64,000 nt of DNA from Acidovorax carolinensis (GTDB taxonomy: Bacteria > Pseudomonadota > Gammaproteobacteria > Burkholderiales > Burkholderiaceae_C), in NCBI RefSeq assembly GCF_002157145.1, contig NZ_CP021361.1, forward strand, positions 3,867,501-3,931,500, written 5' to 3'. The position numbers were made by a program, and so were the translations under genes. The notes below the pieces were generated by a model, which worked only from the letters and a program-made list of their open reading frames with translations, was not told the origin of the DNA and did no database searches. Positions 1,512 to 63,558 of this stretch are shown here, one piece after another (positions within the stretch are counted from its first letter, which is position 1; each line of letters starts with the position of its first letter).

Positions 1512-1554
1512 CATTCAATAGCTGCTTGCGCTTTATACATCAGCGCTACCGGCC
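1512..1554. repeat. Palindromic repeat, copy 1 (between kup and benE)
   Basis: One copy of a dispersed repeat whose core, in this orientation, reads AATAGCTGCTTGCGCTT, then a short spacer, then an arm of the form AGCGCTRSMGGC. It starts 18 bp beyond the kup stop codon. Similar cores occur at ten other places in the window, on both strands. It can fold into a hairpin through the GCGCTT/AGCGC arms, but has no T-run. Confidence 0.6.
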
Positions 1555-1572
1555 AAAAACACGCAAAACCGG

Positions 1573-3441
1573 CTAGATTTCAATCTTGGAGCCCAGCTCG
1601 ACCACGGCGTTGTTGGGCAGATGCAGAAAGTCGGCAGCGCCGCTGGCGTTGTGGTGCATCTGGGCAAAAAGCTTCTCGCGCCAAGGCGCCATGCCGCTGC
1701 CGATGGTGGGGATGATGGTGTCGCGCGACAGGAAATAGCTGGTCGTCATGGGCTCCACATCACAACCGCGCCCGCGCAATTGGCGCAGCGCGCTGGGTAT
1801 GTCGGGATCGTTCTTGAACCCGTAATGCACCACCACCTGCCAGCAATCATGCCCCAGCGGCTCCACGTTCAGGCGCTTGTCCAGCCCGATCCAGGGCACC
1901 TCGTGGTTGTGCACGGTGACAAACAGGTTCTGGCGATGCAGCACCTTGTTGTGCTTGAGGTTGTGCAGCATGGCGTTGGGCACGGCCCCCGGCTCGGCTG
2001 TCAAGAACACCGCCGTGCCATCCACGCGGGTGGGCGGGCTCAGGAACACCGACTCGAGAAAACCTTTGAGGTCGATGGCATCGGCGCGCAGCTTCTCGTT
2101 GAGCAGGCGACGCCCCTCCTTCCAGGTCATCATCAGCACGAACACGCCACCGCCGATCATCAGCGGGAACCATCCGCCCTGGAACAGCTTGAGCAGATTC
2201 GAGGTGAAAAAGGCCAGATCCACCACAAAGAAGCAGCCTGTGGCCGCGATGCACAGCGCCAGCGGATAGCCCCAGCCATAGCGGATGACAAAGAACGTCA
2301 GGGTGGTGGTGATCAGCATGTCCAGCGTGACGGCGATGCCATAGGCCGCCGCCAGGTTGCTGGACGAGCGGAACATCACCACCGCCAGCACAATGGCCAC
2401 GAACAGGCCCCAGTTGACCAGCGGTATGTAGATCTGCCCCGTATCCCGCACGCTGGTGTGCAGGATGTTCAGGCGCGGCAGATACCCGAGCTGGATCACC
2501 TGCTTGGTCACGCTGAAGGCGCCCGTGATGAGCGCCTGCGAAGCAATCACCGTGGCCAGCGTGGCCATGACCACCAGCGGCACCAAGGCCCAATCGGGCG
2601 CCATCATGAAGAACGGGTTTTTCACCGCCTCGGGTTCGGCCAGCAGCAATGCGCCCTGGCCGAAATAGTTGAGTGTCAGCGCCGGCATGGCCACGCCAAA
2701 CCAGGCCAGGCGGATGGGGCGCTTGCCGAAATGCCCCAGGTCGGCATACAGCGCCTCGGCCCCGGTCACACACAGCACCACGGCGCCCAGAATGATGAAG
2801 CTGATGCCCGGATGCGCCCACATGAACCCCAGCGCGTGGTGCGGGCTCATGGCCCAAAGGATTTCAGGGTGGGTGACGATGTGCGACACGCCCAGCACGG
2901 CAATCGTCAAGAACCAGATGAGCGTGACGGGCCCGAAGAACTTGCCGATGCCGCTGGTGCCCCGTTTCTGCACGACAAACAGGCAAAAAAGCACCACCAG
3001 CGTGAGCGGAATCACATACTGCTTGAAGTGGGGCGAGACCACCTCCAGCCCCTCCACCGCGGAAAGCACCGAGATGGCCGGGGTGATGACGCCATCACCA
3101 TAAAACAGCGAGGTGCCGAAGATGCCCACCGCCAGCAGCACCTTGCGCAGCCGGGGCTTGTCTTTCACTGCCTGCGAGGCCAGCGCCAGCATGGCAATGA
3201 GCCCGCCCTCGCCATTGTTGTCGGCACGCAGCACCAGCACCACGTATTTGAGGGAGACGATGACCGTCAGGGTCCAGAAGAAGATGGACAGGATGCCGTA
3301 GATGTTGTCCGGCGTGAACGGCACATGGCCCGAGCCGAAGACCTCCTTGACCGCATACAGCACGCTGGTGCCGATATCGCCATAGACAACACCGATGGCG
3401 CCCAGCGTGAGCGCTGCGAGCGATGATTTGGAGCTTTGCAC
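1573..3441 (-). CDS. kup: Kup-type potassium uptake permease
   Basis: A low-affinity K+/H+ symporter of the KUP/HAK family in the inner membrane. About 12 membrane segments fill the first 440 residues, followed by a hydrophilic C-terminal domain. The family signature YGDIGTS is at residues 20-26. I prefer the GTG at 3441 ([11 protein letters not shown], 622 residues, the E. coli Kup length) because a run of six G lies about 5 nt upstream; a second GTG at 3447 is possible. The open frame extends to 3555 but the extra residues do not resemble the family. Potassium systems cluster here: trkH and trkA lie 1.6-4.5 kb upstream on the same strand. Confidence 0.93.
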
Positions 3442-3538
3442 TGACACCCCCCGCTGCACTGGGCAAGACAGGGTTCCGTAACTTTTGGGAACGCTATTGT
3501 GCGCCCGCCCTCGTATTCGTGTATCGGCCCCACGGGTC

Positions 3539-3555
3539 TTGTTGCAGTGCAACAA
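3539..3555. promoter_or_regulatory. 17-bp perfect palindrome upstream of kup
   Basis: TTGTTGCA, one central G, then TGCAACAA: two 8-bp arms in the gshA-kup intergenic gap, about 98 bp before the kup start. The size and symmetry suit a dimeric repressor or activator site. From memory it resembles TGCA-core sites of betaproteobacterial polyhydroxyalkanoate regulators (PhaR/PhbF), but I cannot confirm the cognate protein. Confidence 0.4.
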
Positions 3556-3609
3556 CTACCCTCTGGCCCCGGCGCCCAAGGCGTGGCATGGGTGGCGCAG
3601 TCACCCGGG

Positions 3610-6492: not shown

Positions 6493-7956
6493 TCAGAAGA
6501 ACGTGGCACTCACGCGGAAGAGCTTTTCCACGTCGCGCACCAGCCGCTTGTGGGGCAGGAAGAACACCACATGGTCGTTGCTCTCCAGCACCGTGCTGCT
6601 GCGCGGAATGATCACCTGCGGCTCGCGCAGGTCATCGGGCGAGACCTCGTGCGCAACCAGCGAATCCGGCAGGCCGCGCACGATGAGGCCGATGTGCACG
6701 TCGCGCGGCAGGGCCAGCTCGCTGACCTTGCGGCCCACCACGCGCGAGGTCTTGCGGTCCCCGCGCACCACGATCTCCAGCGCCTCGGCCACGCCCCGGC
6801 GCAGGCTGTGCACGGCCTGCACATCGCCCTGGCGCACGTAGGCCAGCAGCTCGCCCAGCATGGCCTGCGCGGGCGACAGGGCAATGTCGATCTGCGTGCC
6901 ATGCATCAGGTCGGCATAGCTGCGCCGGTTGATGAGCGCCAGCACGCGGCGCGCGCCCATGCGCTTGGCCAGCAGGCAGGACATGATGTTGTCCTCGTCG
7001 TCGTCGGTGAGGGCCAGAAAGAGATCGATTTCGTCGATGCTCTCATCCCCGAGCAGGTTTTCATCGGTGGTGTCGCCCTGCAGCACCAACGTGTCGGACG
7101 GCAGGCGCGAGGCCAGCTCGATGCAGCGCGCGCTGTCATCCTCGATGATCTTCACCAGATAGCGCCCAGCCTCCTTGCCCAGCTCCAGCGCCAGGTGCAG
7201 GCCCACACGGCCCCCCCCGGCGATCATGATGCGGCGCACCGGCCGCACCGGTGTGGCATCCCGACGGTGCAAGGTGGCCAGCACATGGGCGATGTGCTCG
7301 CGCGCGGCCAGCACAAAAACCTCGTCGCCGGGCTCGATGCGGGTTTCGCCGGCACAGGCCACGAAACGATCGGGCTCTTCCGGAAAGCGGCGGTAAATGG
7401 CCACCAGGCGCACGGCCACCTCCGGGGTGCTGTTGCGCATCTCGGCCACGGTGTGCCCCACCATGGGCGCGCCGGCACGCGCCCGCACCGACACCAGGCA
7501 GGCCCGCCCACCGGCAAACTCGCGCACCTGCATGGCCTCGGGGTACTCGATGAGCTTGCCGATGTAGCGCGTGAGGGATTGTTCGGGGCAGATGATGCGG
7601 TCCACTGCAAAGCCCTCGGGGCCCGTGAGCAGCGGATCGGCCTGAAACCCCATGGAGCGCACGCGCGCGATGCGCTTGGGGATGTTGAACAGCAGCTGCG
7701 CCACTTTGCAGCACACCAGGTTGGTCTCGTCCTGCGCGGCGCAGGCGATCAACAGGTCGGTGTCCTTGGCGCCCGCCTCGGCCAGCACGGCCGGGTCAAT
7801 GCCGTCGCCCACCACGCCGCGCAGGTCAAAGCGCGACTCCAGATCACGCAGGCGCTCGGCATCGGTGTCGATGACGGTGATGTCGTTGCGCTCCGACACC
7901 AGGCTGTCGGCCACGCTCTGGCCCACGCGGCCCGCTCCGAGGATGATGATTTTCAT
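6493..7956 (-). CDS. trkA: Trk system potassium uptake regulator TrkA
   Basis: A 487-residue cytoplasmic regulator with two RCK repeats. The first Rossmann nucleotide-binding motif is GAGRVG at residues 7-12 and the second is GGGRVG at about 247-252. Each is followed by a TrkA-C domain, so the length and duplicated layout match Gram-negative TrkA. It binds NAD(H) and controls TrkH. It is the promoter-proximal gene of the trkA-trkH pair. EIIA-Ntr (ptsN, at 26383-26850 here) is known in E. coli to bind TrkA, so that functional link is possible in this genome. Confidence 0.95.
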   Translation of the reverse strand: MKIIILGAGRVGQSVADSLVSERNDITVIDTDAERLRDLESRFDLRGVVGDGIDPAVLAEAGAKDTDLLIACAAQDETNLVCCKVAQLLFNIPKRIARVRSMGFQADPLLTGPEGFAVDRIICPEQSLTRYIGKLIEYPEAMQVREFAGGRACLVSVRARAGAPMVGHTVAEMRNSTPEVAVRLVAIYRRFPEEPDRFVACAGETRIEPGDEVFVLAAREHIAHVLATLHRRDATPVRPVRRIMIAGGGRVGLHLALELGKEAGRYLVKIIEDDSARCIELASRLPSDTLVLQGDTTDENLLGDESIDEIDLFLALTDDDEDNIMSCLLAKRMGARRVLALINRRSYADLMHGTQIDIALSPAQAMLGELLAYVRQGDVQAVHSLRRGVAEALEIVVRGDRKTSRVVGRKVSELALPRDVHIGLIVRGLPDSLVAHEVSPDDLREPQVIIPRSSTVLESNDHVVFFLPHKRLVRDVEKLFRVSATFF

Positions 7957-7983
7957 GTGGTATCGGCCTTCAGCGCAATACTG

Positions 7984-8016
7984 TCAAGCGCTACCAGCTA
8001 TGAAATAAGGAGCAAA
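7984..8016. repeat. Palindromic repeat, partial copy 2 (after proA)
   Basis: A partial copy of the dispersed repeat, with AAGCGCTACCAGCTATGAAAT followed by AGCAAA. It ends exactly at the proA stop codon (8017-8019) and fills most of the trkA-proA gap. Only one arm and its flank are recognisable. Confidence 0.5.
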
Positions 8017-9297
8017 TCAGTTCCGCACCTCACCCTCGCCCAGCACCACGTACTTGAGCGAGGTGAGCCCTTCCAGCCCCACGGGCCCGCGCGCGTGGAA
8101 CTTGTCGGTGCTGATGCCGATTTCGGCCCCCAGGCCAAACTCGAAGCCGTCGGCAAAGCGCGTGCTGGCGTTCACCATCACGCTGGCCGAATCCACCTCG
8201 CGCAAAAAGCGCTGGGCGTGCACATGGTTGGTCGTGAGGATGGCGTCGGTGTGGTGGCTTGAATAGTGGTTGATGTGGGCAATGGCTTCGTCCACACCCG
8301 CCACCACCTTCACGCTGATGATGGGCGCGAGGTATTCCTCAGACCAGTCCTGCTCGGTCGCCGCGGCAAGCTTTGCGCCGGGCACGCTGGCCAAAATGGC
8401 CATGGCTTCGGGGCAACCGCGCATTTCCACGCCCTTGGCGGCATACACGGCGCCGATCTGGGGCAGAAACTCGGCCGCCACACCGCGCGCCACCAGCAGG
8501 CCTTCGCTGGCGTTGCAGGGGCTGTATTTGCTGGTCTTGGCGTTGTCGGCCACCTTCACTGCCATCGCGATGTCGCAGGGATCGTCCACATAGGTGTGGC
8601 AGTTGCCATCGAGGTGCTTGATGACGGGCACCTTGGCGTCGCGGCTGATGCGCTCGATCAGGCCCTTGCCGCCGCGCGGAATGATCACATCCACAAACTG
8701 CGGCATGGTGATGAGCTGGCCCACGGCCTCGCGGTCGGTGGTCTGCACGAGTTGCACGGCATCCTCGGGCAGACCGGCTTCGGCCAGCGCCTGCTGCACG
8801 ATTTTGGCCAGCGCCTTGTTGGAATCAATGGCCTCGGAGCCGCCACGCAGGATGCAGGCATTGCCGCTCTTGATGCTAAGGCTGGCCGCCTCGATGGTCA
8901 CGTTGGGGCGGCTCTCGTAGATCATGCCGAACACGCCAATGGGCACGCGCATCTGGCCCACGCGGATGCCACTGGGCTGCTGCTTCATGCCCGTGATCTC
9001 GCCAATGATGTCGGGCATGGCGGCGAGCTGCTCGCAGCCCTGGGCACAGGTTTCCAGCACCTTGGGGCTGAGCTGGAGGCGGTCCACCATGGGTTCGGAC
9101 AGGCCCGCGGCGCGGGCGCGCGCCAGATCGCGGGCATTGTCGGTCTGCAGGGCTGCGGTGTTGTCGCGCAGCAGCCGCGCCAGGGCCTTGAGCGCTTTGT
9201 TTTTAATAGCTGCTGGCGCTTTAGCCATAAGGGCTGAAGCCACTTTTGCCTGTAAACCGAGGGCGTGGGTGTATTCGGTGACGTTGAGGGCGTTCAT
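8017..9297 (-). CDS. proA: Gamma-glutamyl phosphate reductase
   Basis: The second enzyme of proline synthesis. It reduces gamma-glutamyl phosphate to glutamate semialdehyde with NADPH in the cytoplasm. It has the aldehyde-dehydrogenase-superfamily fold, and the catalytic Cys is C261 in SPCNASEG. The ATG at 9297 ([14 protein letters not shown], 426 residues) is preferred to the longer frame starting at 9336. Residues 14-33 are encoded by a copy of the dispersed palindromic repeat in frame, yet protein length and the Ala-rich N-terminal pattern stay normal. In many relatives proA follows holA; here the dodecin gene lies between them on the other strand. Confidence 0.95.
9201..9256. repeat. Palindromic repeat, copy 3, in frame inside proA
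   Basis: Contains TTTTAATAGCTGCTGGCGCTT, a spacer, AAGGGCTGAAGCCA and CTTTTGCCTG, which align along most of the repeat consensus. It is read antisense to this orientation as ProA residues 14-33 with no stop codon and no net length change compared with family members. Confidence 0.55.
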
Positions 9298-18831: not shown

Positions 18832-19341
18832 CTAGCGCTTGACTGCCGCCAGCCGCCGCAGCAACTGCTGCACGATGTCGGTCTGCATGTTGCGAAACAG
18901 CAGGGCCTCTTCGGCCTCCTTGGCCAGGGCAATGGCTTCGTTGTAGCTGACCTCGCGCTGCTGCAGCAGTTCGGTGTCGGGAATCAGTTCATCGCCTGCC
19001 GGGGTGCGCAGCCTGAAGCGCACACGCAGACGCAACTCCAGCTCGCGCACCTGGCCGGAGGCGTTCTGGCCCACCACCACGCGTTCGTGCTGCTCCGACA
19101 GCAGATCAAGCACGGCCTCGGCGGTCGGCAGGTCGGCGGCATTGCGCAGCACCCGCAGCGTGCTGCCCGATCCTGCCAGGGTGCGCACCAGCTCCCGCGC
19201 CAGCGACGAGCCCTGCGGTGCCGCCACATAGAGCGAGGCGAACGAAAACTCGGGCACCCCGCGCAGGCGAAAACCGCAGGCGGTCAGCAGGGCCACGGGG
19301 GCGAGGGAGAGCAGTGCGCGCTTGTTCATCATCATGGTCAC
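18832..19341 (-). CDS. lptE: LPS-assembly lipoprotein LptE
   Basis: A 169-residue outer-membrane lipoprotein that plugs the LptD barrel and helps deliver lipopolysaccharide to the surface. It has a lipobox at LLTAC followed by GFRLRG, the typical start of LptE, and a C-terminal region ([18 protein letters not shown]) seen in the family. The ATG overlaps the leuS stop by 4 bp (ATGA), so it is translationally coupled to leuS. The usual next gene, holA, is missing here and lies 8 kb away. Confidence 0.92.
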
Positions 19342-22031
19342 ACCACCACGTTCACCAAGCGTCCCGGCACCACAATCACGCGCTTCGGATGAGCGCCGGC
19401 CGCCTGGGCCGAAAAGGCCTCGCTGGCCAGCGCAATGCGCTCGATCTCGGCCTTGTCGGCCTGGGCCGGCACATGGATGGAGCCGCGCAGCTTGCCGTTG
19501 ACCTGCAGCATGAGTTCGATCTCGTCCTGCACCAGCGCGTTGGCATCGACCTGGGGCCAGGGTGCGTCCAGCAGATCACCCAGGTGCCCGGCGTAGCCCA
19601 GTTGCGACCAAAGGCTGTGCGCCACATGCGGCGTGGCCGGGTACAGGCAGCGCAGCAGGATGCCAAAGCCTTCGATCAGCGCGACCTGGGCGCCGGCCGA
19701 GTCGGTGGCCTTGAAGTCTTCGAGTGCGTTGATCATCTTCATCGCGCCCGACACCACGGTGTTGTACTGCATGCGCTGGTAGTCGTAGTCCACCTGCTTG
19801 AGCACGGTGTGGATCTCCAGCCGCAACGCCTTGGCCTCTTTGCTGAATTCCACGTCTTTCAGGCTGCTGGCGCTTGCCACGCTTGCGCTAGCAGCTTCCA
19901 TATCCATAGCAGACAGCTTCACACCGAAGTTCCACACGCGGCGCAGGAAGCGGTAGCTGCCTTCGACGGCCGCGTCGTTCCACTCCAGCGTGGCCTCGGG
20001 CGGGGCGGTGAACATGGTGTACAGGCGGGCGGTGTCGGCGCCGTATTTTTCGATCAGGTCCTGCGGATCGACGCCGTTGTTCTTGGACTTGGACATGGTG
20101 CCCACGCCCTCGTAGTCGATGGGCGTGCCCACGGGCAGCATGCCATCGCCACTGGTAGCTTCGTTCTTGAGCTTGGCGCCGATGATCTTGCCGCCCTCGT
20201 CGAGCACATGCTCCACATCGTGCGGCCAGAAGTAGTCCTTGCCGCCCTTGGCGGTGCGGCGGCTGTAGATGTGGTTGAGCACCATGCCTTGCGTGAGCAG
20301 CTTGGTGAAGGGCTCATCGACCTTGACGAGCCCCAGGTCACGCATGACCTTGGTCCAGAAGCGCGCATACAGCAGGTGCAGGATGGCGTGTTCAATGCCG
20401 CCGATGTACTGGTCCATCGGCATCCAGTAATCCGCGCCGCCAGCCACCATGGCGTCCGCGTTCTTCGGATCGCAATAGCGCATGAAGTACCACGAACTGT
20501 CCACGAAGGTGTCCATGGTGTCGGTTTCGCGGCGCGCGGCCTTGCCGCACACCGGGCAGGTCACCCCGGCGTGGAAGCCTTCATGCTTGTGCAGCGGGTT
20601 GCCCGAGCCGTCGGGTACGCAGTCGGTGGGCAGCACCACCGGCAGGTCTTTTTCGGGCACCGGCACGGCGCCATGCTCGTCGCAATGGATGATGGGGATC
20701 GGCGTGCCCCAATAGCGCTGGCGGCTCACGCCCCAGTCGCGCAGGCGCCAGGTGGTCTTGAGTTCGCCCAGGCCTTTTTGCGCCAGTGCGTGGGCCACGG
20801 CAGCCACAGCGTCCTTGTGGGAGAGGCCGCTGAAGCTGTCGGAGTTGATGGTCACACCGCGCTGCTTGTCACCGTACCAGTCATGCCACTGGTGGTAGTC
20901 AAAGTGCTCGCCGTCGACCAGCACCACCTGCTTGATCTCGATGCCGTACTTGAGCGCAAACGCGAAGTCGCGCTCGTCGTGCGCGGGCACGCCCATCACG
21001 GCGCCGTCGCCGTAGCCGATGAGCACGTAGTTCCCCACCCACACCTCGACGGGCAGGCCCGTGAGCGGGTGCGTGACGGACAGCCCCGTGGGCACGCCCT
21101 TTTTCTCTTGCGTGGCCAGCTCGGCCTCGGTGGTGCCACCGCTCTTGCATTCTTCGATGAACGCCGCCAGCGCCGGGTTGGATCTGGCGGCATGGGTGGC
21201 CAGTGGGTGCTCGGGCGCCACGGCGCAAAACGTCACGCCCATGATGGTGTCGGCGCGCGTGGTGAACACGTACATCTTGCCGTCGCCAATCAGCGCACCA
21301 TCGTCACCGCGGATGTCATGCGGGAAGGCAAAGCGCACGCCCTCCGATTTGCCGATCCAGTTCTCCTGCATCAGCTTCACGCGCTCGGGCCAGCCCGGCA
21401 GCTTGTCGCCGGTGACAAAGTCGAGCAGCTCTTCGGCGTAGTCGGTGATCTTGAGGTAGTAGCCGGGGATCTCGCGCTTTTCGACCACGGCGCCAGTGCG
21501 CCAGCCCTTGCCGTCAATCACCTGCTCGTTGGCCAGCACGGTCTGGTCCACCGGGTCCCAGTTCACCACCTGGGTCTTGCGGTAGGCAATGCCCTTTTCG
21601 AGCATCTTCAAGAACAGCCACTGGTTCCACTTGTAATAGGTGGGGTCGCAGGTGGCGACTTCGCGGCTCCAGTCGATGGCCAGGCCCATGGCCTGCATCT
21701 GCTTTTTCATGTACGCGATGTTGTCGTACGTCCATTGGGCCGGTGGCACGCCGTTCTTGAGCGCGGCGTTCTCGGCCGGCAGGCCAAAAGCGTCCCAGCC
21801 CATGGGCATGAGCACGTTGTGGCCGTTCATGCGCAGGTAGCGCGTGAGCATGTCGTTGATGGTGTAGTTGCGCACATGGCCCATGTGCAACTTGCCGCTG
21901 GGGTAGGGCAGCATCGAGCAGGCGTAGAACTTCTTCTTGTTGTTGTCTTCCGTCACGCGGTAGGCGTCGGTGGCGGTCCAGTGGTCGTGCGCGGCGCGCT
22001 CGACGTCTTGGGGAGAGTATTTTTCTTGCAT
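19338..22031 (-). CDS. leuS: Leucyl-tRNA synthetase
   Basis: An 897-residue class Ia aminoacyl-tRNA synthetase. HMGH (residues 49-52) and MSKSK (about 644) form the ATP site. An editing domain (CP1) with TTRADT lies between, and a zinc-ribbon-like CPVCGK segment is near residue 490. The start is the ATG at 22031 ([11 protein letters not shown]). Residues about 708-724 ([14 protein letters not shown]) are encoded by a copy of the palindromic repeat, read in frame, just before the anticodon-binding domain. It is first gene of the leuS-lptE unit. Confidence 0.96.
19861..19907. repeat. Palindromic repeat, copy 4, in frame inside leuS
   Basis: GCTGCTGGCGCTTGC, a 3-bp centre, then GCTTGCGCTAGCAGC: nearly perfect 15-bp inverted arms. 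The flank continues with the A/T-rich edge seen in other copies. It encodes an Ala/Ser-rich stretch of LeuS without interrupting the frame. Confidence 0.6.
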
Positions 22032-22585: not shown

Positions 22586-23254
22586 TCACGACTCCGGGTG
22601 CTGCGCCAGCAACTCGCGCAGGTCGCGCGCAAAACCTTCCAGGTCGGCCTCGATGCGGCCAATGAAGCGACCGAACACGTTGTAGGCCAGCACCGCCGGA
22701 ATGGCCACCGCCAGGCCGGCCGCCGTCATCACCAGGGCCTCGCCCACGGGGCCGGCCACGCGGTCGATGGTGATCTGACCGGCGCCCGCCATCGCGCTGA
22801 GGGCGTGGTAGATGCCCCAGACCGTGCCGAGCAAGCCGACGAAAGGGGCCGTGGAGCCCACCGTGGCCAGCAACACCTGACCCCACTGCAGCCGCCCGAG
22901 GGCGCCATGCAGGGCATCGCGCAGCACACGGGTGATCTGCTGCGAGAGGCTGCCAGATGTGGCCAAGGTGGCCTGCACCCCGGTGCTCACCGGATTTGCT
23001 ATTGAATTTGCAGCAATCACCAAAGGCAGCACCAGCGCTTCGCGGTCAAAAGACTGCAAACGCTGCGCCGCGACGTCCAGCGAGGGCGCCTGCCAGAACG
23101 CCGCGGTGCACCGCGCCACGTCGGCCGTGGCCCGGTGCATGAGGCGCGCCTTCCAGAAAATCACCACCCAGCTGGCCACCGACATGGCAAGCAGCAACAG
23201 GGCCGTGCCCTGCGTCACGGCATCTCCCTGGCGCCACCAGTGCAGTGCGTCCAT
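22586..23254 (-). CDS. exbB: ExbB/TolQ/MotA family proton channel protein
   Basis: A 222-residue protein with three membrane helices. The first is near residues 15-35. The last two flank the conserved LLATVGSTAPFVGLLGTVWG and AGLAVAIPAVLAYN segments. It is the motor partner of the downstream ExbD, which follows after 1 bp. Residues about 79-88 (VIAANSIAN) lie in a partial copy of the palindromic repeat, read in frame. It starts 17 bp after the dapB stop, so it may be co-transcribed with dapB. Confidence 0.9.
   Translation of the reverse strand: MDALHWWRQGDAVTQGTALLLLAMSVASWVVIFWKARLMHRATADVARCTAAFWQAPSLDVAAQRLQSFDREALVLPLVIAANSIANPVSTGVQATLATSGSLSQQITRVLRDALHGALGRLQWGQVLLATVGSTAPFVGLLGTVWGIYHALSAMAGAGQITIDRVAGPVGEALVMTAAGLAVAIPAVLAYNVFGRFIGRIEADLEGFARDLRELLAQHPES
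22992..23018. repeat. Palindromic repeat, partial copy 5, in exbB
   Basis: Shares the flank TTTGCTATTGAATTTGCAGC with the complete purK copy, but the second arm is not recognisable. It is read in frame within exbB. It may be a degenerate copy. Confidence 0.35.
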
Positions 23255-28733: not shown

Positions 28734-29640
28734 TCAGCTGAGCACCACGCTCGACAAGCGGCGCCGGTAGGTGGCCACAACCGGGTCTTCGGGGGAATCT
28801 GGCCTTCTGCCACCTTCACCTTGGGCGGCTCGATGATTTCGAGGATGGCCACATAGGTCTTGCGGGCTGCCTCTTCGCTCCAGGCCTTGTCGCGCATCAG
28901 GATTTCGAGCAGCTCGTCCATGGCCTCCTGCCAGCGCTGCTGCGCCATCAGCCAGCGGGCGCGGGCAAAGCGCGTGTCAAAGTCGCGCTTGTTCGCGGCA
29001 ATCTTGGCATCAAATTCACCCCAGCGCTTGATCCATAAGCGCCAGAAGCTAGAAAATCAAGAGCATCCATCCAGCTCTTGAGTGCCCCGAGCTTGCGCGA
29101 TGTGGCGGCCTTGGCAATCACTGGGGCAAAGGCCACCTTGGCATCGTCCTCGCGGCCCAGCTGCAGCAGCAGCTTGACGTAATCAAAACGCGCATCGTCG
29201 TTGGCCGGATCGGTGGCCACAGCGTGCTGCAGCTTTTCAAGCGCTGTGCTGGTGTCGCCTTCGGCCAGTGCGTCCAGGGCTTCTTCTTCCTCGGCTTCTG
29301 CCACCACTTCCTCCGCGGAGGGCACATGCTTGTCGAGGAATGCGCGCACCTGGCCCTCGGGCAGCGCGCCCATGAAGCCGTCCACGGGCTGGCCGTTCAT
29401 CAGCAGCACGCAGGTGGGAATGCTGCGGATGCCGAACATGCCGGCGATCTGCTGCTCCTGGTCCGAATCGATCTTGACCAGCTTGAATCGGCCCGCGTAT
29501 TCGGTTTCGAGCTTTTCGAGGATGGGGCCCAGCGACTTGCAGGGGCCGCACCAGGGTGCCCAGAAGTCCACCAGGACGGGCACATTCATCGAGGCGGCAA
29601 CCACCTCGGCTTCAAAGTTCTCTACGGTGACGTCAATCAT
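28734..29640 (-). pseudogene. cnoX: Thioredoxin-like co-chaperone (CnoX/YbbN type), two frameshifts
   Basis: An N-terminal thioredoxin domain with WAPWCGPCK active site (about residues 28-36) is followed by an acidic linker and TPR-like helices, the layout of CnoX/YbbN, which protects proteins from oxidation and works with GroEL. As read, the first frame stops at 28948. The rest (ARARWLMAQQRWQEAMDEL) continues in another frame to about 28800, and the natural end (TYRRRLSSVVLS) is in a third frame, stopping at 28734. The total length of 907 nt equals 303 codons minus two bases. One shift lies inside a palindromic-repeat copy (29019-29058), the other in a C5 run at 28791-28795. Possibly sequencing errors; otherwise the gene is broken. 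Confidence 0.75.
29019..29058. repeat. Palindromic repeat, copy 6, inside cnoX
   Basis: CCAGCGCTTGATCCATAAGCG, then CCAGAAGCTA: close to the copy at 63490-63558. It encodes the region between TPR helices, and the reading frame changes within or next to it. Confidence 0.55.
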
Positions 29641-29731
29641 GATGGTGTGGGGCCTTGGGGCCTGTGAAGCGGTTTTCGCGCTATTTTGGCCCATCGAAAC
29701 GGCCCCACGCCATGAAGGGAAGCGCAAAAAG

Positions 29732-29737
29732 TAAAAT
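29732..29737 (+). promoter_or_regulatory. Putative -10 box of purE-purK
   Basis: TAAAAT followed by CGCGGGTT, 60 bp before the purE start. No clear -35 box. The GC-rich discriminator resembles that after the tkt and purC boxes and would suit stringent control, which is inference. Confidence 0.35.
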
Positions 29738-29797
29738 CGCGGGTTCCACCTACAGCGGTGCAGCGGGCGCAGCCCGCGGTCCGGCACCTCCAACACC

Positions 29798-30292
29798 ATG
29801 AAACCCATCCAGATCGGCGTGGTCATGGGTTCCAGCAGCGACTGGGACACCATGCAGCATGCAGTGCAGATTCTTGAACAGTTCGGCATCGCCCATGAGG
29901 CCCGCGTGGTCTCGGCCCACCGCATGCCCGATGACATGTTTGCCTATGCCGAAGCCGCTGCGGGCCGGGGCCTGAAGGCCATCATCGCCGGGGCCGGGGG
30001 CGCTGCCCACCTGCCCGGCATGATCGCCGCCAAGACGCCCGTGCCCGTGCTGGGTGTGCCCGTGGCCAGCCGCCACCTGCAGGGCGTGGACTCGCTGCAC
30101 TCCATCGTGCAGATGCCCAAGGGCATTCCCGTGGCCACGTTTGCCATTGGTACGGCCGGCGCCGCCAATGCCGCGCTGTTTGCCGTAGCGCTGCTGGCCA
30201 ACGAAAGCCCCGAACTGCGCCAGCGGCTCGATGCCTTCCGCGCCGAGCAGACGGAAGTGGCGCGCAACATGACCTTGCCGCCTGCCGCATGA
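29798..30292 (+). CDS. purE: N5-carboxyaminoimidazole ribonucleotide mutase
   Basis: A 164-residue PurE class I enzyme converting N5-CAIR to [16 protein letters not shown] (residues 8-19), VSAHRMPD (38-45) and [11 protein letters not shown] are the active-site segments. It overlaps purK by 4 bp (ATGA), so the two are translationally coupled. The last seven codons are past the family core, consistent with beta-type PurE. Confidence 0.96.
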
Positions 30293-31458
30293 CCGACTCT
30301 GCCAAGCCACTTTTGCCGGGTAGCACGCTGGGCGTGCTCGGCGGCGGCCAGCTGGGCCGCATGTTTGTGCACCAGGCGCAGGCCATGGGCTACTTCACCG
30401 CCGTGCTCGATGCCGACCCCACCAGCCCGGCCGGGCTGGTGAGCCACCACCACATCCAGACCGGCTATGAAGACCCGCAAGGCCTGGCCGAACTGGCCCG
30501 CGTGGCCGATGCGGTGACCACCGAGTTCGAGAACGTGCCCGCCGCCGCGCTGGCTGCATTGGCCGCGCGGCTCCCCGTATCGCCCGCCGCCAGCGCGGTC
30601 TCAGTGGCGCAAGACCGGGCCCGCGAAAAGGCCCACTTTGTGGCCTGTGGCGTGCCCTGCGCGCCCTATGCCGTGATCGAAACGGCCGAACAACTGGCCG
30701 CTGTTGCGCCCGATCTGCTGCCGGGTATTCTGAAAACCGCCCGCATGGGCTACGACGGCAAGGGCCAGGTCCGCGTCAAGACCGCCGCCGAACTGGCCGC
30801 CGCCTGGGCGTCGGTGGGCAAGGTGCCTTGCGTGCTCGAAAAGATGCTTCCGCTGGCACTGGAATGCTCGGTGATCGTGGCGCGGGGCCACGATGGCGCC
30901 ACCGTGCACCTGCCGGTGCAGCGCAACCTGCACCGCGAAGGCATCCTGGCCGTGACGGAGGTTTTTGAGCAAAATCTGCCTCCAGCGCTTATCCAGCAAG
31001 CGGTAGCAGCTGCAATTTCAATAGCAAATGGCCTGCATTACGTGGGCGTGCTGTGCGTGGAATTCTTTGTGCTGCAGGACGGCAGCCTGGTGGTGAACGA
31101 GATCGCCCCGCGCCCGCACAACAGCGGCCACTACAGCCAGAACGCCTGCGACGTGTCGCAGTTCGAGCTGCAGGTGCGCACCCTGGCCCGCCTGCCGCTG
31201 ACGCAGCCGCGCCAGCACAGCCCCGCCGTCATGCTCAACCTGCTGGGCGACCTGTGGTTTGCGCACGGCGATGCCGAGCAGACGCCTCCCTGGGCGCAGG
31301 TGCTGGCCCTGCCCGGCGCGCATCTGCACCTGTATGGCAAGCGCGAGGCCAAGCGCGGCCGCAAGATGGGCCACCTCAATGTCACCGGCCCTACGCCAGA
31401 GGCGGCCCGCGCCACGGCCTTGCAGGCCGCAGCCTTGCTGGGCATCGCGGCGTTTTGA
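30289..31458 (+). CDS. purK: N5-carboxyaminoimidazole ribonucleotide synthase
   Basis: A 389-residue ATP-grasp enzyme that carboxylates AIR with bicarbonate. [11 protein letters not shown] marks the N-terminal domain, GYDGKGQ the ATP-grasp glycine-rich loop, and [14 protein letters not shown] the metal- and nucleotide-binding region. Residues about 225-247 ([18 protein letters not shown]) are encoded by a full copy of the palindromic repeat, without changing length or the local pattern. sua5 follows after 2 bp. Confidence 0.96.
30962..31028. repeat. Palindromic repeat, copy 7, full length, in frame inside purK
   Basis: The most complete coding copy. TTTTTGAGCAAAATCTGCC, CCAGCGCTTATCCAGCAAGC, GTAGCAGCTGC, then AATTTCAATAGCAAAT. 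The intergenic copy at 63490-63558 matches it over nearly the whole length. It contains no stop codon in the purK frame. Confidence 0.65.
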
Positions 31459-40251: not shown

Positions 40252-40275
40252 AGTTGAAACCAACGGTCGAATCGG

Positions 40276-40320
40276 CCACTAGCGCTTACCAGTAAAGCGC
40301 TAGCAGCTATTAATTTCATA
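40276..40320. repeat. Palindromic repeat, copy 8, overlapping the mtn stop codon
   Basis: ACTAGCGCTTACCAGTAAAGC, then GCTAGCAGCTATTAATTTCAT. Clear arms AGCGCTTAC and GTAAAGCGCT around a CCA centre. Its edge supplies the TGA stop codon of the nucleosidase gene (40316-40318). Confidence 0.7.
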
Positions 40321-41065
40321 GTCTTTGTAAAAACGATTGCACCATGTGGTCGGCATAGCGGCTGGCCACGGTCTGCACGAACTGCGCGAAGTCGCCATGC
40401 GCGGCATCGTCGGCCCGGTCGGAGATGGTGCGCACCGCCGCAAACGGCACGCCATAGTCAAGGCACACCTGGGCCACGGCGGCGCCTTCCATTTCCACGG
40501 CCAGCACGTCATGGCCCGCTTCGCGCAGCGCGGTGCGCAGCCGGTCGGACTCGTGCGCGGCCGATACAAAGCGGTCGCCGCTGGCCATCAGGCCGTGGTG
40601 CACCTGCTGGGCAAGATCGCCATTATTTGAGTCAAATAGCCCTTCAGCGCTTATCAAGCAAGCGCGAGCAGCTTCCAAAAGAAGAGCAGACAAAGCCACA
40701 TCGCAAGCCAGCCGCGCCCGTGCGTAGCCCGGCAGCTCCCAGCGCGGAAACAGGGGCGAGGCGTCCATGTCGTGCTGCACATAGTCCTGCGCCACCACCA
40801 CATCGCCCACCCGCACGCCATCGCCCACTCCACCAGCCACGCCCGTGAACACGATGCGTGCCGCGCCAAACCGCTCGATCAGTGCCGTGGCCGTGGTGGC
40901 GGCTGCCACCTTGCCGATGCCCGAAAGCGCCAGCACCACGCTGTGGCCGTGCAGCGATCCGGTCCAGAAAACACGCCCCGCATGCACCCTGCGCTGGGGG
41001 TGCTGCAAGCTGGCCACAAGGCCCGATTGCTCTTCGGCAAGTGCGCTGAGGATGGCGGTGGTCAT
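40316..41065 (-). CDS. 5'-methylthioadenosine/S-adenosylhomocysteine nucleosidase family protein
   Basis: A 249-residue phosphorylase-superfamily nucleosidase. ILSALAEEQSGL at the N-terminus, FTGVAGGVGDGVRVGDVVVA, and VEMEGAAVAQVC (substrate-binding Glu) and ISDRADDAAHGDF are family marks. It cleaves methylthioadenosine and S-adenosylhomocysteine. Start ATG at 41065, with an alternative at 41074. A repeat copy (40622-40676) is in frame around EAARACLISAEGLFDSNNG, and another repeat supplies its stop codon. The C-terminal residues (QSFLQRL) may therefore differ from relatives. Confidence 0.9.
   Translation of the reverse strand: MTTAILSALAEEQSGLVASLQHPQRRVHAGRVFWTGSLHGHSVVLALSGIGKVAAATTATALIERFGAARIVFTGVAGGVGDGVRVGDVVVAQDYVQHDMDASPLFPRWELPGYARARLACDVALSALLLEAARACLISAEGLFDSNNGDLAQQVHHGLMASGDRFVSAAHESDRLRTALREAGHDVLAVEMEGAAVAQVCLDYGVPFAAVRTISDRADDAAHGDFAQFVQTVASRYADHMVQSFLQRL
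40622..40676. repeat. Palindromic repeat, copy 9, in frame inside the nucleosidase gene
   Basis: TATTTGAGTCAAATAGCCC, TTCAGCGCTTATCAAGCAAGC, GCGAGCAGCTTCC. Matches the core and both flanks of the family. Read on the minus strand it encodes part of a surface loop-like segment with no stop. Confidence 0.6.
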
Positions 41066-54280: not shown

Positions 54281-55042
54281 TCAGCGGTTGAGTTCTGCGA
54301 GCCGCTCGGGCGTGCCGACATCGGTCCAGCGGCCGGTGTAGAGCGCGGCGGACACACGGCCTGCGTCCATCGCACGGCGCAGCAGCGGGGCCAGCGGGGC
54401 CTTGACGCCCCCCGGGTTACCCGCCGGGATGTCACACCAGGGCGCAGCAAACAGCTCGGCGCGCAGCAGTGCAAGGGTGCTGTAGGTGTAGCGCGGCGCG
54501 GGGTCGTCTGCGGACAGGTTGAGTGCCAGGCCTTCACGGGACAAACCGAAGTCGCCGTGCGGGTTGTGCGCCGGGTTGGGCACCAGCCACAGGTGGGCCA
54601 GATGGTTGCTGGCCGCAAACGCCTGCACGGCGGCGCTGTCGAACACGAAGTCGGGTGCAAACACATCGCCCGCGGCCAGCCAGAAAACAGGCCCCAGCTG
54701 CGGCAGCGCGCGCGCAATGCCGCCCGCCGTTTCCAGCGCGCCACCAAAATCCACGCCTTCGTGCGAGTATGAAATTGATAGCTTATCGCGCTTATCCCAT
54801 AAGCGCTGCAGGCCATTTTCATTGGAAAAATACGCCGGAATCTGCGCTCCCAGCCAGGCGGTGTTGATCACCACGCGCGACACACCAGCATCGGCCAGTG
54901 CCTGCAAATGCCACTGCAGCAGCGGCCGGCCCTGCACCTGCAGCAAGGGTTTCGGGGTGGTGTCGGTAAGGGGCCGCATGCGCTCGCCACGGCCTGCCGC
55001 CAGCACCAGCGCGGGCACTTGCAAAAATGCCGGCTGCGTCAT
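54281..55042 (-). CDS. Nucleotidyltransferase, MurU-like
   Basis: A 253-residue sugar-1-phosphate nucleotidyltransferase. [23 protein letters not shown] at the N-terminus, [15 protein letters not shown] and [11 protein letters not shown] follow, as in MurU (MurNAc-1-phosphate uridylyltransferase of cell-wall recycling). The usual neighbour AmgK is not here; speD is upstream and overlaps by 4 bp. A copy of the palindromic repeat (54771-54825) encodes about residues 73-91 ([17 protein letters not shown]). The family assignment is firm, the exact sugar is not. Confidence 0.82.
54771..54825. repeat. Palindromic repeat, copy 10, in frame inside the murU-like gene
   Basis: GAAATTGATAGCTTATCGCGC, TTATCCCATAAGCGCTGCAGG, CCATTTTCATTGG. 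Flank and arms match the family. Read on the minus strand it encodes about 18 residues between conserved enzyme blocks. Confidence 0.6.
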
Positions 55043-60259: not shown

Positions 60260-60296
60260 CGGCCTGCATCAGCGGGCCCCACTGGACCCGCCGGTG

Positions 60297-60767
60297 TCAG
60301 TGCTGGTGGCCGTGCGCCCCGTGCACATGGCGGTGCGCAATCTCCTCTGCCGTCGCGGCGCGCACGCCAGTCACCTTGCAGCTGAACTGCAGCGCCTGGC
60401 CTGCCAGCGGATGGTTGCCATCGAGGTGCACTTCGGGGCCCTTGATCTTGACGACGTTGAACACCTGCGGCTGGCCATCGGACCCGAGGCCTTGCAGCTG
60501 GCCGCCCACCTTCACGCCCGGGGGAAACTCGGCCTTGGGGATGGTGCGCACCAGGCTTTCGTCGCGGGCGCCAAAGGCGTCGTCCACGGCAAGGTCGAGC
60601 GTGGTGCCAAAGCCCACGGCCTGGCCATCGAGGGCCGCTTCGACCTTGGGAAAGATGTTGTCATAGCCGCCATGCAGATAGGCCATGCTGCCCGCATCGA
60701 GCGGCTTGCCCTGGGGCGTGGTGACCTTGTAGGTGATGGTGACGGCGGCGTCTTTGGTGATGTTCAT
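60297..60767 (-). CDS. FKBP-type peptidyl-prolyl isomerase, SlyD-like
   Basis: A 156-residue protein with the SlyD layout: split FKBP domain (ITYKVTTPQGKPLD; LDLAVDDAFGARDE), an insert-in-flap domain (FPPGVKVGGQLQ to HLDGNHPLAGQALQF), and a His-rich metal-binding tail ending HRHVHGAHGHQH. It helps fold proteins and may bind nickel or other metals. Single gene, 38 bp from the converging hydrolase. Confidence 0.9.
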   Translation of the reverse strand: MNITKDAAVTITYKVTTPQGKPLDAGSMAYLHGGYDNIFPKVEAALDGQAVGFGTTLDLAVDDAFGARDESLVRTIPKAEFPPGVKVGGQLQGLGSDGQPQVFNVVKIKGPEVHLDGNHPLAGQALQFSCKVTGVRAATAEEIAHRHVHGAHGHQH

Positions 60768-60881
60768 GGCGTTGCGCTTTCAAGGGAGCTGCGCGGGGCG
60801 GTTCACGACGCAAGTCGGCACCGCCGCGCGGATCAAACCCCGGATTGTCCACGAGGCGCCTGCCAGACGCCTCTACAACGG

Positions 60882-61952
60882 TCAGGCAGCAGCGCCGGGC
60901 CGCTCTTCATCGGCCTGGCCGGGGTAGCGCGCAAACCGCCGCGCCTCGGTGCCGTGCACAGGGTCCTGCTCGGGCCAGGGCCAGCCGCCAAACTGGGTGA
61001 GGCGGTAATCGTTCATGGCCTGCATGATCTCGGCCTGCGTGTTCATCACGAAGGGGCCGTATTGCGCCACCGGCTCGCCAATGGGCTGGCCCTGCAGCAG
61101 CAGGCATTCCACGGCCGTGGCGCCGGTGTTGGTGAGCAGCCAGTCCTGGCCCGCCACCAGCTCCAGCGCGGCATGCTGGCCCACCTCCTGCGGCCCCACG
61201 CGCAGGCTGTCGCCCACAAAGAAATACAGCATGCGGCGCGTGCCCTGGCCACGCGCGGCCGGCAGCGTCCATTGCGCGCCCGGCTCCATGCGCAGCGTCC
61301 AGATGGCCACGTCGCCCTCGGGCTGCGAGGCCCACGATTCGGGCGGCGGCGCCAGCGGGGCGGGCGCGCCGGGCACTGCGCCGGCCACCACGGTCACGGT
61401 GGTAGCGCGGCCTGCGGCGTCGCTGTGCACCAGGCGCGGGATGCGCTCGTTCCACAGCATGGTGAAGTGGGGCTCTACCAACTTGTTGCGCGCGGGCAGG
61501 TTCAGCCAGATCTGAAAGAGTTCGAGCGGGTTGGGCTCGGTGGCGTTGAGCAGCGGAAACATCTCCGAGTGCACGATGCCCTTGCCGGCCGTGACCCACT
61601 GCACATCGCCGCCGCCAAAGCGCGCGGCCGCGCCCAGCGAATCCGAATGGTCGATGAGCCCCTTGCGCACCAGCGTCACGGTTTCAAAGCCGCGGTGCGG
61701 GTGGCCGGGAAAGCCGGGCACGGTGTCGCCGTGGTACATGCTCCAGCCGTCCTTGCGGCTGAAGTCGCTGCCGATCTGGCGGTCTTCCAGCGACACGGCG
61801 GGCGCGAACGCACCATTGCCTGCGGGATAGGCATCGTCATGGTGGGCGCAGAACAAAAACGGGTCCATCGTGGGCCACAGCGGGCCCAGCGCCTGGGCTT
61901 GCACGATGGGCGGGGTGGTGGCAGACGAAGACACGGCAGGGGAGGACGACAT
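60882..61952 (-). CDS. Pirin family protein
   Basis: A 356-residue double-cupin protein. The N-terminal cupin has the metal-binding pattern HPHRGFETVTLV and HSEMF (about residues 85-130). The C-terminal cupin has RRMLYFFVGDSLRVG and related strands. Some pirins are quercetin-dioxygenase-like or act as redox-sensitive regulators; a specific reaction cannot be stated. Starts MSSSPAVSSSATTPP, an unusually Ser/Thr-rich N-terminus. Confidence 0.85.
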   Translation of the reverse strand: MSSSPAVSSSATTPPIVQAQALGPLWPTMDPFLFCAHHDDAYPAGNGAFAPAVSLEDRQIGSDFSRKDGWSMYHGDTVPGFPGHPHRGFETVTLVRKGLIDHSDSLGAAARFGGGDVQWVTAGKGIVHSEMFPLLNATEPNPLELFQIWLNLPARNKLVEPHFTMLWNERIPRLVHSDAAGRATTVTVVAGAVPGAPAPLAPPPESWASQPEGDVAIWTLRMEPGAQWTLPAARGQGTRRMLYFFVGDSLRVGPQEVGQHAALELVAGQDWLLTNTGATAVECLLLQGQPIGEPVAQYGPFVMNTQAEIMQAMNDYRLTQFGGWPWPEQDPVHGTEARRFARYPGQADEERPGAAA

Positions 61953-62081
61953 CAGGGCTCCTTGAAGTTACGCCGCCACCATCGGCGGTATGTCTGTTGA
62001 ATATGGGGCCAGTGGAGTCGCAATGAAAGTGCTTCGGGTGGAACAGTGCGGTGCGCCCAGCAGGACAGCGGGCGCCCGGTG

Positions 62082-62177
62082 TCACACCCCATGGCGCATT
62101 GACGCCCGCTTCTCGGGGTTGAAGTCCCGCATCCTCCGCATGCGCACATCCATGCCACCGGGCATGGTGCCCGTCAT
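62082..62177 (-). CDS. Small ORF overlapping the VOC-protein gene
   Basis: 31 codons, Met-rich (MTGTMPGGMDVRMRRMRD). Its ATG overlaps the stop codon of the preceding gene as ATGA, which permits translational coupling. No family is recognised and the region beyond it is non-coding. It could be the remnant of a longer gene, or chance. Confidence 0.25.
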   Translation of the reverse strand: MTGTMPGGMDVRMRRMRDFNPEKRASMRHGV

Positions 62178-62605
62178 GACGCCACCACCACCATCCACGA
62201 CAGGCCGAAACGGTCGGCCACCATGCCAAAGGCGGGCGAGAAGAATGTCCTGCCCAGAGGCATCTGCACCGTGCCGCCCTCGGCCAGCGCGCTGAAGAGG
62301 CGCTGCGCCTCGGCCTCAGTGGCGGGATTCAACGACAGTGAGACACCCTGGAAATGGGGCTTGCCCGAGCCCAGGCTATCGGACGCCATGAGCTGCGTCT
62401 CGCCCACGCGGAAAACGGCGTGCATCACCATCTCGGGCTTGGGCCCGGTGCTCGCCCCCTCTGCCGCACAGCCTTGGCCGGCGGCGGGCTCGGGGTTGTC
62501 CTTGTAACGCATCAGTGCCGTCACCTCAGCGCCCAAGGCGCGGCGGTAAAAATCCAGCGCCTCTTCGCAGCGGCCTTCAAAAAACAGATAGGGCTCGACT
62601 TTCAT
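62174..62605 (-). CDS. VOC family protein (PhnB-like)
   Basis: A 143-residue member of the glyoxalase/bleomycin-resistance superfamily. MKVEPYLFFEGRCEEALDFY at the N-terminus and LSLNPATEAEAQRLFSALAEGG then FFSPAFGMVADRFGLSWMV at the C-terminus are typical of PhnB/YjdN-like proteins. AAGGAG precedes the ATG at 62605. Function is unknown for this group. Confidence 0.85.
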   Translation of the reverse strand: MKVEPYLFFEGRCEEALDFYRRALGAEVTALMRYKDNPEPAAGQGCAAEGASTGPKPEMVMHAVFRVGETQLMASDSLGSGKPHFQGVSLSLNPATEAEAQRLFSALAEGGTVQMPLGRTFFSPAFGMVADRFGLSWMVVVAS

Positions 62606-62773
62606 GGCGGTCTCCTTGCGGTGGACGGATGAAAAGGGAAGTGTCCCCATTCCGCTTTGCATGACCGTAACCACCCGCAACAACCCTGCCGCCTGAGTGC
62701 CGCCCGGATGCCACGCCCCTCGCTGGATCAGCGGTTTCTGGACAGGGTGTAGCGCGGACTGTGACCGCGTTGC

Positions 62774-63349
62774 TCAGGGCTGCTTGGCCACAAACGCTAC
62801 CGTCAATCCCTTGGCGGTGACCGTGATGGGCCCCGGCTGCAGGCCCAGGCCGTCGAACACGGCCGTGTCCTGCGGGCGCAGCTGGTGCAGCGTGACTTCG
62901 CGCAGCGATTGCTCGGCCAGCATCGGGCCATAGGCGTTGAGGATTTCCGTGACGGCGGGGCGAAGGGTAGGGAACTCCAGCCGCCCCAGCTTGAGCTGGT
63001 GCGCCCGCAACGTGCGGTCGCTGGCCTCGTAGCGCAGCGCAAACTCCACATCGAACATGCCCGCGTGGCTGCGCCGCAGTGCCGGTCCCGCGGCGTCCAC
63101 CGCCATGGCTGCGCCCAGGCGGTTCACCTCGGGCAGCAGGCGCAGGCGTGGCGCCTGCACCGTAAGGTCAAGCAGCCCCTGCACCGGCACGCTGCGCGGA
63201 AACTTCTGGGCCACCATCTCCTGCAATTGCGCCAGCGGCACGGTGTAACTGGGCTGGGCCTGCGCGCCGCGGCCCACCAGCAACGCCGCGCCACCCCCTG
63301 CCAAAAGGCCGCAGGTGGCAGTGCTCAGAAATCGTCGGCGATGCAGCAT
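62774..63349 (-). CDS. DUF1439-like exported protein
   Basis: A 191-residue protein with a Tat-like signal (HRRRFLSTATCGLLAGG) ending near GAQAQPSY. The rest fits the DUF1439 (YceB-like) pattern, with LAQLQEMVAQKFPRSVPVQG and a C-terminal LQPGPITVTAKGLTVAF. CCAGGAG precedes the ATG at 63349. Role unknown; the family are probably envelope lipid-binding proteins. Confidence 0.75.
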   Translation of the reverse strand: MLHRRRFLSTATCGLLAGGGAALLVGRGAQAQPSYTVPLAQLQEMVAQKFPRSVPVQGLLDLTVQAPRLRLLPEVNRLGAAMAVDAAGPALRRSHAGMFDVEFALRYEASDRTLRAHQLKLGRLEFPTLRPAVTEILNAYGPMLAEQSLREVTLHQLRPQDTAVFDGLGLQPGPITVTAKGLTVAFVAKQP

Positions 63350-63489
63350 GGGTTTCTCCTGGTAGGGAGGTGGGACACGGATGCGGGGAAAAGGTGCCCC
63401 GGCTGCGGTGGGGGGGGTGTGGTGTCGACTGCAGCGCGCCATCCGCGCACGCTGGGGAAGATGGGCAGACTTCCACGCGTTAGCAGCAA

Positions 63490-63558
63490 AAAAATTGAGC
63501 TGTTTTGGCCTCCAGCGCTTATCCAGAAAGCGCCAGAAGCTATGAACTCAATAGCAAT
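63490..63558. repeat. Palindromic repeat, copy 11, full length, intergenic
   Basis: The best intergenic copy, 69 bp: AAATTGAGCTGTTTTGGCC, TCCAGCGCTTATCCAGAAAGC, GCCAGAAGCTATGAACTCA, ATAGCAAT. It abuts the stop codon (63559-63561) of the small zinc-ribbon gene and matches the purK copy across nearly its whole length. Confidence 0.7.

Follow-up and report, generated by a model that had tools for sequence, protein, structure and literature searches.

The window analysed in this study, a stretch of 64,000 nucleotides from the genome of Acidovorax carolinensis (contig NZ_CP021361.1, positions 3,867,501 to 3,931,500), carries multiple copies of a dispersed palindromic element, which reside in the spacers behind genes and within coding sequences including those of proA, leuS and purK (Table 1). 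Eleven such copies had been listed in an earlier note, and most of this list is supported by a covariance model termed R1, which was built from 37 copies of the same genome aligned over 69 columns without gaps and which recovers ten of the eleven at E-values of 1.5e-5 or lower, the recovery of the five training copies that stem from the window being by construction. The remaining entry, at 22992-23018, is not an R1 match and resembles by eye a fragment of the right tail of the element, with counterparts in the 8 relatives compared. The division between genes and spacers has also shifted: where four intergenic copies had been counted, the gene caller yields five (starting at 1502, 7949, 40258, 54762 and 63491) next to five in-gene copies (9190, 19846, 29000, 30961 and 40623).

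Table 1. Copies of the palindromic element in the window, with their scores in the R1 model and their position relative to predicted genes.
Feature	Position	Strand	R1 score	Context
Intergenic copy	1502..1570	-	46.1 bits (E 9.4e-11)	Just behind the stop of a minus-strand gene ending at 1573
Intergenic copy	7949..8017	+	37.3 bits	Fills the spacer of two minus-strand genes, whose ends touch 7956 and 8017
In-gene copy	9190..9258	-	46.5 bits	proA (8017-9297, minus), codons 14-36; length unchanged
In-gene copy, opposite strand	19846..19914	+	29.6 bits	leuS (19338-22031, minus)
Right-tail fragment, by eye	22992..23018	+		Gene 22586-23254 (minus)
In-gene copy near 3' end	29000..29068	+	47.7 bits	Predicted gene 28948-29853 (minus)
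In-gene copy	30961..31029	+	65.5 bits	purK (30289-31458, plus), codons 225-247; length unchanged
Copy at 3' end of gene	40258..40326	+	62.5 bits	Minus-strand gene 40316-41065, convergent spacer
In-gene copy, opposite strand	40623..40691	+	60.9 bits	Gene 40316-41065 (minus)
Intergenic copy by gene caller	54762..54830	-	61.4 bits	Neighbouring open reading frame 54566-54772 doubtful
Copy ending at stop codon	63491..63559	+	65.3 bits	Minus-strand gene 63559-63849

The copies belong to a large family. A 464-kb sample, which consists of the window and 20 evenly spaced stretches of 20 kb and covers approximately one ninth of the 4.12-Mb genome, contains 71 distinct copies at an R1 cut-off of E <= 0.01 (75 rows minus 4 overlapping rows on the opposite strand), from which a number of about 630 per genome is obtained by extrapolation. 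Over the whole genome R1 returns at least 150 matches, and the exact core AGCGCTTATNNANNAAGCGC is found 81 times compared to 0 occurrences of its reversed control. The proposal of a single palindromic family located within genes and behind stop codons is thus borne out, with 58 of the 71 copies being intergenic and 13 lying inside predicted genes (one of them, L093:12762, in a doubtful open reading frame). The profile and genome search for further copies that had been suggested also extends to other organisms, where the core pattern is present in 38 of 299 genomes of the family and in 21 of 141 genera, with no matches of the control. Carriers of a longer pattern, among the matches listed, are Acidovorax, Comamonas, Diaphorobacter, Extensimonas, Giesbergeria, Paenacidovorax and a metagenome-assembled genome of Rhodoferax. 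Among the loci compared from this list, the source genome is matched best by a contig of Acidovorax defluvii (94.3% over 1.3 kb) and by a metagenome-assembled genome of Acidovorax (92.1% over 1.6 kb), which places the window in Acidovorax or near it. Numbers vary within the genus, with 81, 42, 15 and 6 exact cores in four of its members, and the relative G002 shows no R1 match at E <= 0.01 in 100 kb, although one or more of its intergenic sites retain, by eye, a degenerate hairpin.

The consensus of 96 copies, gaTTTtgaGTcAAATtGGCCTCTAGCGCTTATccAacAAGCGCTAGCAGCTATtAATTtaATAGCAatt, describes an element of about 55-65 nt that is embedded in the 69 nt of the R1 profile. Its core hairpin has the form AGCGCTT-loop-AAGCGCT, with a stem that can be extended beyond a 2x2 mismatch to ATGGC...GCTAT, and a second hairpin would form if GCTAT paired instead with a downstream ATAGC; pairing cells amount to 79.0% and 81.6% in the two alternatives (37 copies). 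The GC content of the copies, which ranges from 30 to 55%, is below the 64.8% of the 464-kb sample. The 96 copies share a mean pairwise identity of 0.562 with a maximum of 0.797, and since no pair reaches 80%, this set contains no recent duplicates. Despite this low overall identity, 21 columns show a constancy of 80% or more. The same partition is found between orthologous copies, where 87 of 651 cells in motif columns and 226 of 403 cells in free columns are changed for intergenic copies (31 pairs at 9 sites), compared to 124 of 924 and 200 of 572, respectively, for in-gene copies (44 pairs at 10 sites), counts from which orthologs below 15 bits were excluded, which favours the contrast between both classes of columns. 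An analysis of k-mer enrichment revealed nothing informative beyond AAGCGCTA in noncoding DNA, and a known RNA family is ruled out, as the window yields no match to Rfam at gathering thresholds.

Between genes, the element occupies positions downstream of coding regions. In gaps of at least 30 bp within the sample, we find 18 copies per 50 convergent, 37 per 179 co-directional and 3 per 68 divergent gaps, and the association with stop codons that had been noticed for minus-strand genes of the window thus holds in the larger sample and on both strands, with divergent gaps accounting for only 3 of the 58 intergenic copies. The median distance from the stop codon to the core in co-directional gaps is 25 nt for copies in the same and 35 nt for copies in the opposite orientation (14 and 23 copies, respectively), and convergent gaps contain 9 of each. 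Such a distribution, together with two hairpins carrying A/T-rich flanks, would be expected for bidirectional terminators or hairpins at the 3' ends of mRNAs that had converged by selection in the absence of any dispersal. We nevertheless regard this origin as quite improbable, as 13 of the 71 copies are located within genes on either strand, where terminators placed by selection, for instance in purK or leuS, would be unexpected, and as a simple terminator scan of the sample stretch L105 detected 19 sites compared to 16.6 expected, none of them on its six copies. A function of the intergenic copies in termination is possible.

Along the genome, the spacing of copies is Poisson-like, with a ratio of variance to mean of 1.09 over 23 bins of 20 kb, a test of low power, and no two copies of the sample lie closer together than 365 nt. 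With regard to strand, the copies of the sample are distributed similarly in both chromosome halves, which were taken irrespective of the origin (15/15 and 22/19), and no bias is thus found. Inside genes, all seven copies on the opposite strand share one frame and the six copies on the same strand use three frames. Two of the in-gene copies are contained in N-termini resembling signal peptides (L100:597-665 and L095:207-274), whose alanine-rich hydrophobic stretch suits the frames of the element, and the earP gene (L100:9272-9793) harbours two copies in opposite orientation.

The relationship between the in-gene copies and the coding sequence that surrounds them was investigated at ten sites in 69 orthologs from relatives within the genus by use of an ungapped profile, with scores below 5 bits taken to indicate absence of the element; here and below, all genomes were compared at the level of species. 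At this threshold, 49 of the orthologs retain the element and 20, distributed over 8 sites, lack it. Sixteen of these 20 are identical in length to the source genome and the others differ by -12 nt (two), -9 nt (one) and +15 nt (one), so that none displays the loss of 55 to 69 nt that would correspond to an element. The comparison of alleles with and without the element, as had been advocated, therefore indicates that codons were rewritten in place rather than interrupted by an insertion. Sites of the window conform to this behaviour: the purK site is equal in length in 11 relatives, whose scores range from 74.0 down to -41.8 bits, the proA site in 6, all of which are still element-like, and the leuS site in 8, of which 4 score below 5 bits, with no change of length within the genus. 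At the site 40623..40691, relatives differ from the source genome by -6 to +18 nt, and the one at 29000..29068 is free of the element in G002 at +0 to +1 nt. Relative to each of the 9 relatives examined, the source genome is short of 1 nt in the latter copy, a difference by which the predicted gene 28948-29853 would change its reading frame close to the 3' end.

Protein structures lead to a similar result. The product of proA aligns without gaps to structure 4ghk and that of purK is gap-free through the element against 4izo and 4e4t, all three of which we take to be Burkholderia proteins. NadE, LeuRS and EarP are approximately 3-6 residues longer than distant structures at the site of the element, the additional residues falling into loops, with 6 gap positions found for leuS against 6q89. 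These observations bear on the resemblance to the palindromic elements of Rickettsia (RPEs) proposed in the earlier note, which are inserted in genes and lengthen proteins (PMC3733652). With RPEs, the element shares its nature as a palindromic in-gene repeat in a readable frame, and the single frame adopted by opposite-strand copies is as expected for in-frame insertions, but it adds no residues in proA and purK, only 3-6 in the loops of the three other proteins and none of the 20 lacking orthologs is shorter by its length. The likeness is thus not sustained, RPE-like insertion is ruled out at the sites tested by the gap-free alignments and the lengths of orthologs, and we attribute next to no weight to this explanation.

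What appears to be the clearest recent gain within a gene is found at L095:207, in the signal peptide of a peptide-binding protein, where the copy is confined to the source genome among the 8 compared. It scores 45.3 bits in the source genome and between -11.2 and -60.5 bits in 7 relatives, to which the alignment is gap-free, with 24-32 of 68 positions changed compared to 17-25 of 150 in the adjoining stretch. Relative to the majority of relatives, 14 changes were made toward the consensus of the element, 3 away from it and 8 in neither direction. The objection that in-gene copies are ancestral coding sequence, which had been named as a potential refutation, consequently applies to the length and homology of the proteins and fails for the nucleotides, which have shifted to those of the element, as at L095:207, where none of the 7 relatives is element-like. 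In the second site of EarP, a conserved stretch reads KREQLSISYLP in G007, where its codons match the element (76.0 bits), and KRGQLSLSYLP in G004, where they fail to do so (-34.2 bits). Certain targets already resemble the element, such as, by eye, the first EarP site in G002 and, with 18.6 bits, the purK gene of the same relative. Coding sequence of the source genome contains 14 matches of the ungapped profile of at least 15 bits and 7 more between 0 and 15 bits, a part of which may represent palindromic copies read on their reverse strand, compared to 0 and 1 for reversed columns. When whole copies were masked, a scan with half-elements at 14 bits detected 6 right arms (0.1 expected) and 5 left arms (0.9 expected), an excess which implies that partial copies exist.

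Between genes the picture is mixed. Orthologous comparisons of copies with at least 45 bits, evaluated by half-profile scores, amount to 427, with the element present in 375 and lacking in 52. The copy at 7949..8017 has equal spacing and element-like sequence in G001, G004, G007 and G018, and the one at 40258..40326 is element-like in G001, G004, G011, G015 and G018. After exclusion of one mixed cluster of 30 copies, and with a procedure that lumps some neighbouring sites, four independent in-gene clusters without the element remain, at -12 to +24 nt, next to seven intergenic clusters, at four of which the lacking relatives are equal in length or longer (+6, +12, +96 and +320). The other three, described below, are shorter and would be compatible with an ordinary family of repetitive extragenic palindromic sequences (REPs) or miniature inverted-repeat transposable elements that had inserted long ago and decayed since, its in-gene copies being insertions accompanied by compensating deletions. 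Such a scenario would also account for the link to a transposase, yet it faces the lack of any element-sized difference in length at the 8 in-gene sites, the rewriting of constrained codons themselves and the divergence among the 96 copies, and we thus consider it improbable.

A transposase related to the REP-associated tyrosine transposases (RAYTs), which the earlier note had proposed to look for, is encoded in the genome outside the window by a single Y1_Tnp gene (3444163-3444864, minus strand). Y1_Tnp is the only Pfam domain in its product, and the closest NCBIfam model, REP_Tyr_transpos, scores 73.8 bits, which is below its cut-off of 80. Of 52 genomes, chosen to include both carriers of the element and genomes without it, 51 contain a relative (in G284 with 77 residues only), and seven contain further, more distant matches. 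The flank past the stop codon of the transposase ends, usually after 36-62 nt, in the sequence GATRTGTCCC or a variant thereof, which we refer to as anchor. It is in this 3' flank that the tail of the element (columns 48-62) is detected at a fixed offset: of 50 loci, 34 give the tail a score of at least 8 bits, and in 43 of the 50 the best position of the tail lies 16-17 nt ahead of the anchor. The loci comprise 39 placed by pattern and 11 placed by match coordinates, where the pattern had missed the RAYT gene in ten cases and the anchor in one, and whose inclusion lowers the rate of tails. As controls, the tail was found in 6.5% of 403 gene ends of the source genome and in 0 of 81 in G002, and none of 500 profiles with permuted columns reaches the mean of the 39 pattern-placed loci. 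On the upstream side of the RAYT gene, R1 yields two matches at distances of about 20 and 90 nt, and the own RAYT flank of the source genome contains a half-element that is recognized by eye and not matched by R1. Among 29 RAYT genes, 24 have repeats resembling GGGGWSAS in the 110 nt that follow the gene and 12 have them in the 160 nt that precede it, which are raw counts without a chance control. Repeats similar to AATTGGGGTCAGA and RTGTCCCCAATTA also flank many RAYT genes (L247-L276). At the level of sequence, the family is thus REP-like and tied to the transposase, whose enzyme would presumably act on the element.

The in-gene copies compared replace coding DNA instead of adding to it, and their spread would therefore proceed by overwriting rather than insertion. 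We thus favour a process in which a REP-like hairpin, whose tail is found behind a REP-type transposase gene, spreads in genomes of the Acidovorax group by the in-register overwriting of partly matching DNA, with a probability that we place at about 0.45 and thus slightly below even odds, because it accounts both for the conserved length of in-gene copies and for targets that already resemble the element. More tentatively, we propose a specific version of overwriting, in which a RAYT-linked REP, as single-stranded hairpin, anneals to partly matching targets and recodes stretches of purK, proA, leuS and nadE at constant protein length. In the favoured process of overwriting, the HUH/Y1 nuclease would act on a single-stranded hairpin, and the hairpin strand, or else a switch of template to another copy, would pair with a partly matching target, the lagging strand being its probable site, with the copied tract keeping its register. 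Within genes, only copies sparing the protein would survive, whereas insertion may occur as well in the spacers. Once the element has arrived, the motif columns would be held and the remainder would drift.

Several observations weigh against spread by overwriting. No such event was caught between close strains in our comparisons of species, and no identical donor for the L095:207 copy was identified, the best other place showing 3 mismatches in 30. Compensatory pairing is weak in the main and tail hairpins (37 copies). At three of the seven intergenic clusters, relatives lacking the element are shorter (by 34-59, 24-50 and 22 nt), and insertion or deletion is thus possible between genes. The link to the transposase has its own exceptions: the tail reaches 8 bits in 4 of 9 genomes labelled as element-free (3 of 4 pattern-placed and 1 of 5 coordinate-placed), and R1 marks the 3' end of the RAYT in only 5 of 30 loci, one of them at an E-value of 0.17. 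The RAYT gene is also present in genomes where the core count is 0 and does not by itself explain copy number, of which its presence is thus ruled out as the cause. Finally, the scores of orthologs are graded, ranging for nadE over 48.5, 46.2, 41.6, 39.0, 37.4, 16.0, 10.8 and 1.3 and for purK from 76.9 down to -41.8, a series to which, as far as sequences can tell, decay after one event and stepwise build-up would fit equally, and which constitutes the main result against a one-step view.

The graded scores lend weight to the main rival of overwriting, in which the element would be built by point mutation under drive or selection. It would in this case be a genome-wide recognition signal, kept by selection or biased exchange in a similar manner as DNA uptake sequences, and might be read by a competence receptor, a nucleoid protein, gyrase or a domesticated RAYT. 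The in-place origin of in-gene copies and the constant columns found without near-identical copies would also be expected for such a signal. Conversely, uptake motifs are far shorter than the element, which is further distinguished by its palindromic core and by a spacing that is Poisson-like rather than even, and coding sequence contains few half-way scores. Uptake sequences share with the element a location within genes as well as at their ends and, as far as its in-gene copies are concerned, an origin from sequence already present (PMC1939737, PMC2397512), and they are described as products of point mutation in one account (PMC1939737), whereas for Neisseria an origin by recombination was argued in another (PMC2397512). 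On balance, we consider the signal unlikely, while holding it in higher regard than either old insertion or terminators.

In its relation to described systems, the element has a direct precedent. A potential novel motif reported in 2017 for Acidovorax ebreus TPSY, GCTTAT(N)5AAGCG, with 114 copies of which 94% are intergenic, near gene ends and often between convergent genes, is the core of the element described here (PMC5217627); the section listing it describes no full element, transposase, in-gene comparison or mechanism. The motif ATAGCT(N)22CAAAAG listed for Polaromonas in the same source does not fit the element in its spacing and may be a relative. Similar to REPs and REPINs with their RAYTs (PMC3116915, PMC3733652, PMC6006769), the element is palindromic, is present in hundreds of copies behind and within genes and is associated with a repeat-flanked Y1 transposase gene. 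Unlike these, it contains no GTAG or GTGG foot, which by eye is absent from the foot of the stem on either strand of the 96-copy consensus, there are no near-identical copies, and the in-gene copies replace coding sequence instead of interrupting it, whereas the REPs known from inside genes, besides those behind them, are described as inserted (PMC3733652). RAYTs that are flanked by terminal inverted repeats (TIRs) have been named TIRYTs (PMC3733652). The GGGGWSAS-like repeats counted above resemble those of this group, and the dispersed repeat would here correspond to the stretch between stop codon and terminal repeat. RAYTs of subclass 2.1, which are probably identical to TIRYTs, were reported without REP-like neighbours in the survey describing them (PMC6006769). 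The BRE repeats of Bordetella and other Betaproteobacteria including Comamonadaceae, which are 75-91 bp long, have a GC content of 69% in Bordetella and are often arranged in tandem (PMC3110155), are comparable to the element in being dispersed, in occurring in Comamonadaceae and in having some in-gene copies. Identity with BRE is ruled out by the low GC content of the element, its different length and the distance between its nearest copies.

A search of the literature, with most subscription journals outside its coverage, revealed no paper that links the motif to a RAYT or that describes recoding in place. The manner in which REPs spread is a long-standing question, and the title of a review from 1988 reportedly already asked whether they evolve by gene conversion. 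The repeat family investigated here offers element-free orthologs as a reference for its in-gene copies, and the comparison shows replacement rather than insertion. Collectively, our study describes a dispersed repeat that is tied to a RAYT gene occurring throughout the bacterial family, with letters of the repeat written into housekeeping genes. If the transposase belongs to the TIR-flanked subclass, this would be the first REP family for a group of RAYTs that was reported to have none.

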